Shown piece by piece: positions 53,755 to 54,295 of a stretch of 64,000 nucleotides of DNA. Source of the stretch: Psychroflexus curvus. Its GTDB lineage: Bacteria > Bacteroidota > Bacteroidia > Flavobacteriales > Flavobacteriaceae. The stretch spans positions 62,001-126,000 of the forward strand of contig NZ_JAIQZF010000007.1 in assembly GCF_020164585.1 (NCBI RefSeq), written 5' to 3'. How positions within the stretch are numbered: the stretch's first letter is position 1; each line of letters opens with the position of its first letter. A model generated the notes under the pieces. That model had not been told where the DNA came from. It saw nothing but the letters and a program-made list of their open reading frames with translations, and ran no database searches. Position numbers and translations under genes: made by a program.

Positions 53755-53785
53755 TTTGTTTAATTAAATAATGGTTTTATATTTG
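53755..53785 (+). promoter_or_regulatory. Promoter of tRNA-Phe
   Basis: TTTG (53755-53758), a 19-base spacer and TATATTTG (53778-53785) match the Bacteroidota consensus in both boxes and in spacing. The tRNA 5' end is 17 bases downstream of the -7 box. Confidence 0.85.
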
Positions 53786-53801
53786 CATCCGCAATAAAAC
53801 T

Positions 53802-53874
53802 GGTGCCTTAGCTCAGTTGGTAGAGCAAAGGACTGAAAATCCTTGTGTCCCTGGTTCGATTCCTGGAGGCACCA
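53802..53874 (+). tRNA. tRNA-Phe (anticodon GAA)
   Basis: Cloverleaf: acceptor GGTGCCT with AGGCACC, D arm GCTC-AGTTGGTA-GAGC, anticodon stem AGGACT...AATCCT region with loop carrying GAA, variable GTGTC, T arm CCTGG-TTCGATT-CCTGG (one T-T mismatch in the stem), discriminator A at 53874. CCA is not encoded. It has its own promoter and a terminator hairpin right after, and is followed by an array of partial copies. Confidence 0.95.
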
Positions 53875-54173
53875 CCTTTTAAACCTCAACTTTTACTAGT
53901 TGGGGTTTTTTTATGCGTGAAAATATGTCTCCCTGGTTCTCCCCAAGGCGTTGGGGACTGGAGGCACCACCTTTTAAACCTCAACTTTTACTAGTTGGGG
54001 TTTTTTTATGCGTGAAAATGTGTCTCGCTGGTTCTCCCCAAGGCGTTGGGGACTGGAGGCACCACCTTTTAAACCTCAACTCTTACTAGTTGGGGTTTTT
54101 TTATGCGTGAAAATATGTCTCGCTGGTTCTCCCCAAGGCGTTGGGGACTGGAGGCACCACCTTTTAAAACTCA
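53871..54173 (+). repeat. 95-bp tandem array of tRNA-Phe 3' ends plus terminators
   Basis: The sequence from 53871 repeats with a period of exactly 95 bases (starts at 53871, 53966 and 54061; a partial fourth at 54156). Each unit runs: ACCACCTTTTAAACCTCAAC, the terminator hairpin, ATGCGTGAAAAT, then CTGGTTC, an 18-base palindrome (TCCCCAA-GGCG-TTGGGGA, first at 53940-53957) and CTGGAGGC. The last part equals the T arm and 3' acceptor strand of the tRNA, except that GATTC in the T loop is replaced by the palindrome. Units differ at only a few bases, so the duplication is recent or kept uniform. No promoter box is present inside units. Confidence 0.93.
53884..53912 (+). terminator. Intrinsic terminator of tRNA-Phe
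   Basis: CCTCAACT (53884-53891), a 6-base loop and AGTTGGGG (53898-53905), then seven T. The same hairpin recurs in each 95-bp unit downstream, so any read-through meets two more copies. Confidence 0.88.
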
Positions 54174-54295
54174 ACTTTAAGTAGATGATAACCTTAAAAA
54201 AAAGAGCACACATAATACTAAATCTATCACATGGTTTCTTAGAACCCTGTATTCTAAATATACCTTTAAAACACACATTCCTTTAGCTACTATGC

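Follow-up and report, generated by a model that had tools for sequence, protein, structure and literature searches.

A tandem array of half-tRNA copies behind tRNA-Phe in Psychroflexus curvus as a probable ORF-less derivative of a GIY-YIG element associated with tRNA genes

The tyrT tandem repeats of E. coli (rtT RNA) lie behind a tRNA gene, and every repeat includes a duplicate of the tRNA 3' end; to our knowledge, they lack a GIY-YIG gene, and their tRNA part has no hairpin. Integrative elements that target tRNA genes, i.e. integrase islands, duplicate the tRNA end at the junction and an intact tRNA remains, group I introns with GIY-YIG endonucleases bring a nuclease into the context of a tRNA gene, and REP/RAYT systems comprise short palindromes with dispersed relatives. 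In phage T6, the GIY-YIG enzyme SegB drives tandem repeats whose 718-bp unit contains tRNA-Tyr and a truncated segB, and segB is frequently found near tRNAs in phages (PMC13096335).

The locus compared here lies in a window of 64,000 nucleotides, the whole stretch of Psychroflexus curvus DNA that was analysed (contig NZ_JAIQZF010000007.1, positions 62,001 to 126,000). Its parts are, in window coordinates and with the basis of each assignment in brackets:

53778..53785, + strand: likely -7 promoter box of tRNA-Phe, TATATTTG (letters read; taken by us to be a -7 box from the Bacteroidota consensus)
53802..53876, + strand: tRNA-Phe(gaa), intact (tRNA search, Rfam search)
53881..53912, + strand: terminator hairpin and T-run of tRNA-Phe (letters and fold)
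53918..53939, + strand: unit 1, left part of the half-tRNA copy, tRNA-Phe positions 33-56 (shuffle test)
53940..53957, + strand: unit 1, 18-nt hairpin in place of the T loop (letters; 16-nt relatives with compensatory changes)
53958..53971, + strand: unit 1, copy of the tRNA-Phe 3' end, CTGGAGGCACCACC (letters)
53976..54007, + strand: terminator copy 2 (letters, TRF)
54013..54066, + strand: unit 2, half-tRNA with hairpin at 54035-54052 (letters, shuffle test)
54071..54102, + strand: terminator copy 3 (letters, TRF)
54108..54161, + strand: unit 3, half-tRNA with hairpin at 54130-54147 (letters, shuffle test)
54162..54190, + strand: last terminator, degenerate, with stem and T-run broken, perhaps the original one (letters)

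A preliminary description had claimed a tRNA-Phe gene followed by a 95-bp array of three units and a partial fourth, and the tRNA call, TRF and the letters all agree with it. TRF places the array at 53863-54178 with period 95, 3.3 copies, 97% matches, 0 indels and a score of 604 (the second-best of the nine TRF rows in the window scores only 102), and on reading there are three full units, then a partial fourth with the degenerate terminator, the number of units being as assembled. Within a unit the order is half tRNA-Phe, 18-nt hairpin for the T loop, tRNA 3' end and terminator copy. The insert, TCCCCAAGGCGTTGGGGA, begins at 53940, 54035 and 54130; it does replace the T loop, as described, but what had been called an 18-base palindrome is a hairpin whose 7-bp arms enclose a 4-nt centre, imperfect as a palindrome. 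Similarly, the tRNA 3' part reported for the units is present but is longer than was stated: since the 22 nt preceding the insert match tRNA positions 33-56 in three of three units, an alignment equalled by 0 of 2000 shuffles for each, every unit represents half a tRNA from the anticodon loop on. The terminator of tRNA-Phe itself folds with -13.7 kcal/mol over 53877-53917 (z -5.5). In the organism's own genome the 95-bp unit is found at the tRNA-Phe array alone, the nine other matches listed being short, with E-values of at least 0.46, so that the unit is indeed tied to a tRNA gene and is no general intergenic repeat.

The five flanking ORFs encode, by Pfam, a type III pantothenate kinase, a 63-aa protein without a match, a prolyl oligopeptidase, a protein with a weak outer-membrane match and a TPR protein; neither a recombinase or integrase gene nor a RAYT transposase is among these five, and the array contains no GIY-YIG ORF. 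An Rfam scan of the window stretch gave the tRNA alone at gathering score, other families remaining sub-threshold, and RtT had no match there up to an E-value of 5. No further TANNTTTG box was found on the + strand from 53786 to 54200, and over the entire window the motif shows no enrichment (80 occurrences vs 75 expected).

We compared the locus across 27 Psychroflexus genomes, the window's included, by querying them with the 95-bp unit. Matches came from 19 of the 27, and many are arrays with a different period (168 bp, ~370 bp or 100 bp). The 168-bp version is found in a single-contig genome, which speaks to some extent against a mere assembly artefact, although the number of units in the window is that of its assembly. 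Congener units of 353-374 bp contain, between terminator and half-tRNA, an ORF of ~93 codons whose product matches the Pfam GIY-YIG domain (E-value 8e-16). One congener has a 370-bp unit with the ORF and then two 100-bp units without it, which links the two forms. As there is no ORF in the window array and an ORF at the same locus in congeners, we class the former only as an ORF-less derivative. The tRNA-Phe gene was found in 25 of the 27 genomes, and the state of the locus, classed by reading, was as follows (G019, missed by the search pattern, and G023, cut by a contig end, stand outside these classes):

ORF-bearing locus, 7 genomes: G001, G002, G004 (over two contigs), G006, G009, G010 (ORF putative), G011
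ORF-less or internally deleted units, 5 genomes: G000, G003, G013, G024, G025
Remnants only, 5 genomes: G007, G012, G014, G018, G026
No trace recognised, 6 genomes: G005, G008, G015, G016, G020, G021
No tRNA-Phe match, 2 genomes: G017, G022

Taken together these states look like those of a cycle, in which a locus would be empty, then occupied, amplified, ORF-less and finally decayed. Past the sixth unit at L036 (G025, minus strand), the last GIY-YIG start continues in frame into an unrelated C-terminal ORF longer than 100 aa.

Relatives of the nuclease were sought with a five-protein alignment (A1) and peptide patterns, a search blind to tRNAs, in one genome per species over 84,980 species, and the best 80 of 89 relatives were taken as loci. 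Nearly all of these 80 are Bacteroidota by name, the exceptions being L182 (Balneolaceae), L187 (Melioribacteraceae) and L195 (a Limnohabitans MAG). According to ARAGORN, run on the best 80 of 89, 61 loci have a same-strand tRNA within 200 bp; at a density of 34 tRNAs in 3.0 Mb, that of the organism's own genome, such adjacency would be expected by chance in about 0.5% of loci. The ORF lies on the 3' side of the tRNA in 53 of the 61 (median gap 49 bp) and was counted on the 5' side in eight, a count that should be six (five tRNA-Asn and one tRNA-Cys), because at L191 and L197 the altered copy had been called as the tRNA and the true tRNA lies upstream. Eight further loci have a tRNA within 1.5 kb, seven end at a contig edge, and four (L135, L190, L195, L200) have none though more than 1 kb from the contig end; among the latter, L135 holds element parts without an intact tRNA, and L190 starts within an array. 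Positions 2040-2480 of L135 read as tRNA 3' end, terminator, ORF and hairpin-marked copy, beginning with CTGGAGG, with no intact tRNA upstream. An opposite-strand tRNA within 1.5 kb was found at none of the 80 loci.

A second sample of 198 genomes spread over the phylum Bacteroidota, which may overlap in species with the first, was searched with a 40-protein profile, and 92 genomes matched. Adjacency was checked at 30 loci from the best-scoring genomes, 26 of which could be placed (four ORFs remained unplaced; L229 is from the window's genome): a tRNA lies within 200 bp in 21 of the 26 and within 1.5 kb in 22, and in 21 loci a tRNA fragment past the ORF scored above all 20 shuffles. Ten isotypes are represented here (Phe, Met, Thr, Asn, Asp, Lys, Val, Gly, Arg and Ala), and over three samples Cys, Pro and Ser bring the number to 13, several of them seen once.

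The full element runs from the tRNA through its terminator, the GIY-YIG ORF and half of the same tRNA, with a loop turned into a hairpin, to a copy of the terminator; in the 5'-side versions the altered half comes first and the intact tRNA last. An altered half of the adjacent tRNA, with its loop hairpin and then a terminator copy, is found in the window as well as in the relatives, and a GIY-YIG domain with the catalytic Y, Y, R and E in the ORFs of the relatives, the window array having no ORF. That part of the adjacent tRNA is copied on the far side of the ORF can be quantified at 65 of the 69 loci having a tRNA, as the contig stops too early in the other four. The best tRNA alignment in the 700 bp past the ORF exceeded all 100 shuffles at 53 of these 65 loci, compared with 0 of 60 distant control regions; the other 12 comprise seven marginal cases (equalled by no more than 3 of 100 shuffles) and five at background level (L147, L155, L162, L166, L199).

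In most of the copies that were read, one loop has given way to a hairpin with the pattern (T)CCC(C)GA..GC..TC(G)GGG(A). It is the T loop that is replaced in Phe, Met, Asn, Arg, Ala and some Val copies, the anticodon loop in Asp, Lys and other Val copies, and the D loop in the 5'-side Asn elements; these identities rest on reading, as automatic assignment of the insertion point was too noisy (of 57 alignments, 25 had no insertion of at least 8 nt and 12 were assigned to 'other'). A palindrome score over the 75 bp past the ORF (at least 11 in 44 of 69 loci, and in 2 of 61 distant regions) was left unused, since it mixes hairpins with terminators. At the five 5'-side loci with tRNA-Asn (L173, L176, L177, L178, L186) the D loop is replaced by the hairpin TCCCGATAGCTATCGGGA, from which L176 differs by one base, and a TATATTTG-like box precedes the altered half, so the ORF and tRNA-Asn may be co-transcribed.

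The alignment of hairpins started from 38 distinct strings, the pattern having missed units 2 and 3 of the window array; the strings were trimmed and merged into 33 rows, with a few odd 3' ends left out, and four 39-nt rows, the window's among them, were then removed. In the resulting 29 distinct Phe-type copies with 16-nt inserts, C-G has been replaced by U-A at the two outermost pairs in 10 and 4 rows, both partners having changed, and neither pair is unpaired in any row. There are 14 two-sided cells vs 6.0 in shuffled alignments (a count reached in 1 of 500), a covariation score of 0.209 vs 0.156 (1 of 500) and 93.7% vs 92.1% of cells paired (13 of 500), whereas for two of the five measures of covariation, the number of pairs that change on both sides (2) and that of further pair types (8), the values were not above shuffles; the innermost pair is unpaired in 18 of the 29 rows. 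Compensatory changes of this sort can also come from template-switch correction of imperfect palindromes, in which case selection is not needed.

Within a locus, the terminator behind the intact tRNA resembles the one behind the copy (over 45 loci, median ungapped identity 0.89 and gapped score 0.92, with low similarity in eight of the 45), whereas between loci of one isotype the corresponding values are 0.42 and 0.55. Thus, the tRNA part and the terminator are local duplicates, or else were homogenised later, and gene conversion could be reflected in this likeness.

The nuclease measures ~80-95 aa in the proteins read. Six residues (Y5, Y16, R26, W46, E64 and K68) are invariant in 40 proteins, of which Y5, Y16, R26 and E64 are presumably the four GIY-YIG catalytic positions, and the best relatives of solved structure are UPF0213 proteins (E-value 0.03). 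Among 15 gap-free pairs, four were saturated and one, L173-L186 (omega 2.1, unequal lengths), was distrusted; the ten used gave dN/dS of 0.08-0.27, with dS below 1 in six of them, and judged from these coding sequences the nuclease is under purifying selection. The 77-protein tree (8 of the 80 loci, short or with stops, left out, five own-genome proteins in, 70 of 77 rows labelled) requires 18 isotype changes, compared with a mean of 27.5 after shuffling (0 of 200 as low), on a poorly resolved topology and with a statistic inflated by near-copies; on this measure, nuclease lineages follow tRNA isotype. A likely target switch is seen in Psychroflexus sediminis (L132 5880-6518), where a Phe-clade GIY-YIG gene lies between an altered and an intact tRNA-Cys and the copies are of tRNA-Cys, not of tRNA-Phe. 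Horizontal transfer between genera was considered for the Phe clade and is unsupported, as one clade per genus is not rejected there (p-AU 0.80, 0.74 and 0.45 for Maribacter, Psychroflexus and Flavobacterium), and inheritance may thus be mostly vertical. The query nuclease had no match in plasmid and phage collections and one weak match in viral contigs.

Within the organism's own genome we observed 25 GIY-YIG matches, at least two of them parts of larger open frames (604 and 457 aa). Eight of them are no more than 1 kb away from a tRNA gene and form four clusters, at Met, Asp, Ser and Arg genes; the array at tRNA-Arg (368 bp, 2.9 copies) is upstream of its tRNA, and its units bear the 5' part of tRNA-Arg. 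Another eight make up a 364-bp array of 7.9 copies with a tRNA 3' half inside and no adjoining intact tRNA, a half that we read from its sequence as probably that of initiator tRNA-Met. The array of about eight GIY-YIG units at L081 1400-4400 (own genome, C34), with tRNA-fMet-like 3' halves and no intact tRNA adjoining, would be either an orphan array or the outcome of a rearrangement. The nine remaining matches have no listed tRNA within 1 kb. At L056, L058, L061 and L072 (own genome, C1 and C31) GIY-YIG genes sit amid repeats, CGTCGGGATGACA and TCGAGAACT for example, away from tRNAs. Palindromes of the form CCCRA-N(2-8)-TYGGG occur at 78 places in this genome, compared with 30 for the same pattern reversed as a control. 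Amplification by a palindromic mobile sequence, one of the origins suggested at first, agrees with this excess and with the hairpin in the tRNA copies of most related loci but catches one part only, and a dispersed palindrome was rejected as the prime mover: it is enriched, yet among the matches listed not confined to tRNA loci. Group I introns were rejected as well, the tRNA being alone at gathering score in the window stretch, at 10 own-genome loci and at 13 of the 80 loci of relatives.

We consider it probable that the window array represents a non-autonomous form, devoid of the ORF, of a homing-endonuclease-like GIY-YIG element that is associated with tRNA genes and spreads by local duplication. 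Comparison between genomes establishes, at the level of sequence, the architecture, the distribution across Bacteroidota, the resemblance between the duplicates and the local tRNA, the covariation, the purifying selection, the linkage to isotype and the existence of ORF-less and decayed forms. An element using the tRNA end, the first of the origins suggested, goes in the right direction, and related arrays do encode a GIY-YIG endonuclease, but no integrase adjoins and the duplicated half looks local. As to cutting, mobility, its direction, the order of steps and the role of the hairpin, we infer the following. The nuclease would cut at or near the stem-loop DNA of the tRNA gene or at the junction of the hairpin-marked copy, and repair via the repeated tRNA 3' end and terminator would duplicate the unit in tandem, leaving one functional tRNA. 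The hairpin may mark the copy for the nuclease, or it may shield the copy from cutting or from acting as a tRNA. Unequal recombination between repeats would make the array grow or shrink and might drop the ORF, as in the window, whose ORF-less units would be by-products. By analogy, SegB of phage T6 lends some support to duplication driven by a nuclease.

One may also consider a host-maintained device that is not selfish, in which the nuclease is made only when tRNA termination fails or tRNA genes are disturbed (e.g. by phage) and the half-tRNA hairpins would be its substrate or its antidote. Purifying selection on the nuclease, its near-constant position behind the terminator and the lack of any sign of transfer between genera would all suit such a device; nevertheless, we regard it as unlikely, since the gene is absent or decayed within one genus, several near-identical ORF copies occur in one genome and PADLOC scores are weak and partial in the two proteins scanned (best E-value 9e-5). 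Somewhat less likely still is passive tandem duplication of the tRNA end and terminator by replication slippage or recombination, with the GIY-YIG gene as a passenger. Short repeats with hairpins are prone to slippage and the window array carries no gene; however, 61 of the 80 nuclease genes lie by tRNAs with little variation in distance, their layout recurs at many isotypes, and nuclease lineage is linked to isotype. Retention for a tRNA-like or small RNA product, the third origin suggested at first, is very improbable: a single 95-nt unit does fold stably as hairpin plus terminator (z -3.25; 0 of 200 shuffles equally stable), but the + strand of the array has no TANNTTTG box, Rfam recognises no RNA family at gathering score beyond the tRNA itself, the units sit behind a terminator, and several congeners have no array or remnants only.

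If the array does derive from a nuclease-bearing element duplicating at tRNA genes, a strange repeat is accounted for by a recurrent organisation in which a very small nuclease accompanies an essential tRNA gene and a half-tRNA marked by a hairpin, and many short GIY-YIG genes gain a setting. Such elements would offer a testable bacterial system for endonuclease-driven tandem amplification at tRNA genes and for preference among tRNA loops, and arrays of half-tRNAs may break assemblies and confuse tRNA annotation. A wider claim would be that they form an undescribed class of mobile elements across the phylum, whose sole protein is a GIY-YIG nuclease of ~80-95 aa and which colonises tRNA genes of many isotypes by partial duplication with a loop hairpin, leaves one tRNA functional, multiplies in tandem and gives rise to small ORF-less arrays; here we find ourselves evenly divided between belief and doubt. 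Such elements were not described in the titles and abstract openings of the papers brought up by searches of the open-access literature (most subscription papers and all bioRxiv preprints fall outside it), and four literal palindrome strings did not occur in open-access papers.

Among the known systems, the tyrT/rtT repeats differ in that the window stretch has no Rfam RtT match. Integrase islands are set apart by the absence of an integrase beside the window array, by units of only 95-374 bp and by a terminator that is duplicated as well. Unlike group I introns, the element leaves the functional tRNA uninterrupted and no intron family is matched, and in contrast to REP/RAYT the linked nuclease is of the GIY-YIG family and the hairpin lies inside a tRNA loop. 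The closest likeness is to SegB of phages T4 and T6, a free-standing GIY-YIG homing endonuclease beside tRNA genes, with tandem repeats that contain a tRNA and the nuclease gene (PMC13096335), whereas here the setting is bacterial chromosomes, the proteins are of ~80-95 aa, it is an altered part of the tRNA that is repeated, with a loop replaced by a hairpin, and many isotypes are involved in both 5' and 3' versions. We therefore rate free-standing GIY-YIG elements near tRNA genes as a known kind and the Bacteroidota element as a variant thereof, and see a fair chance that it merits a separate class.
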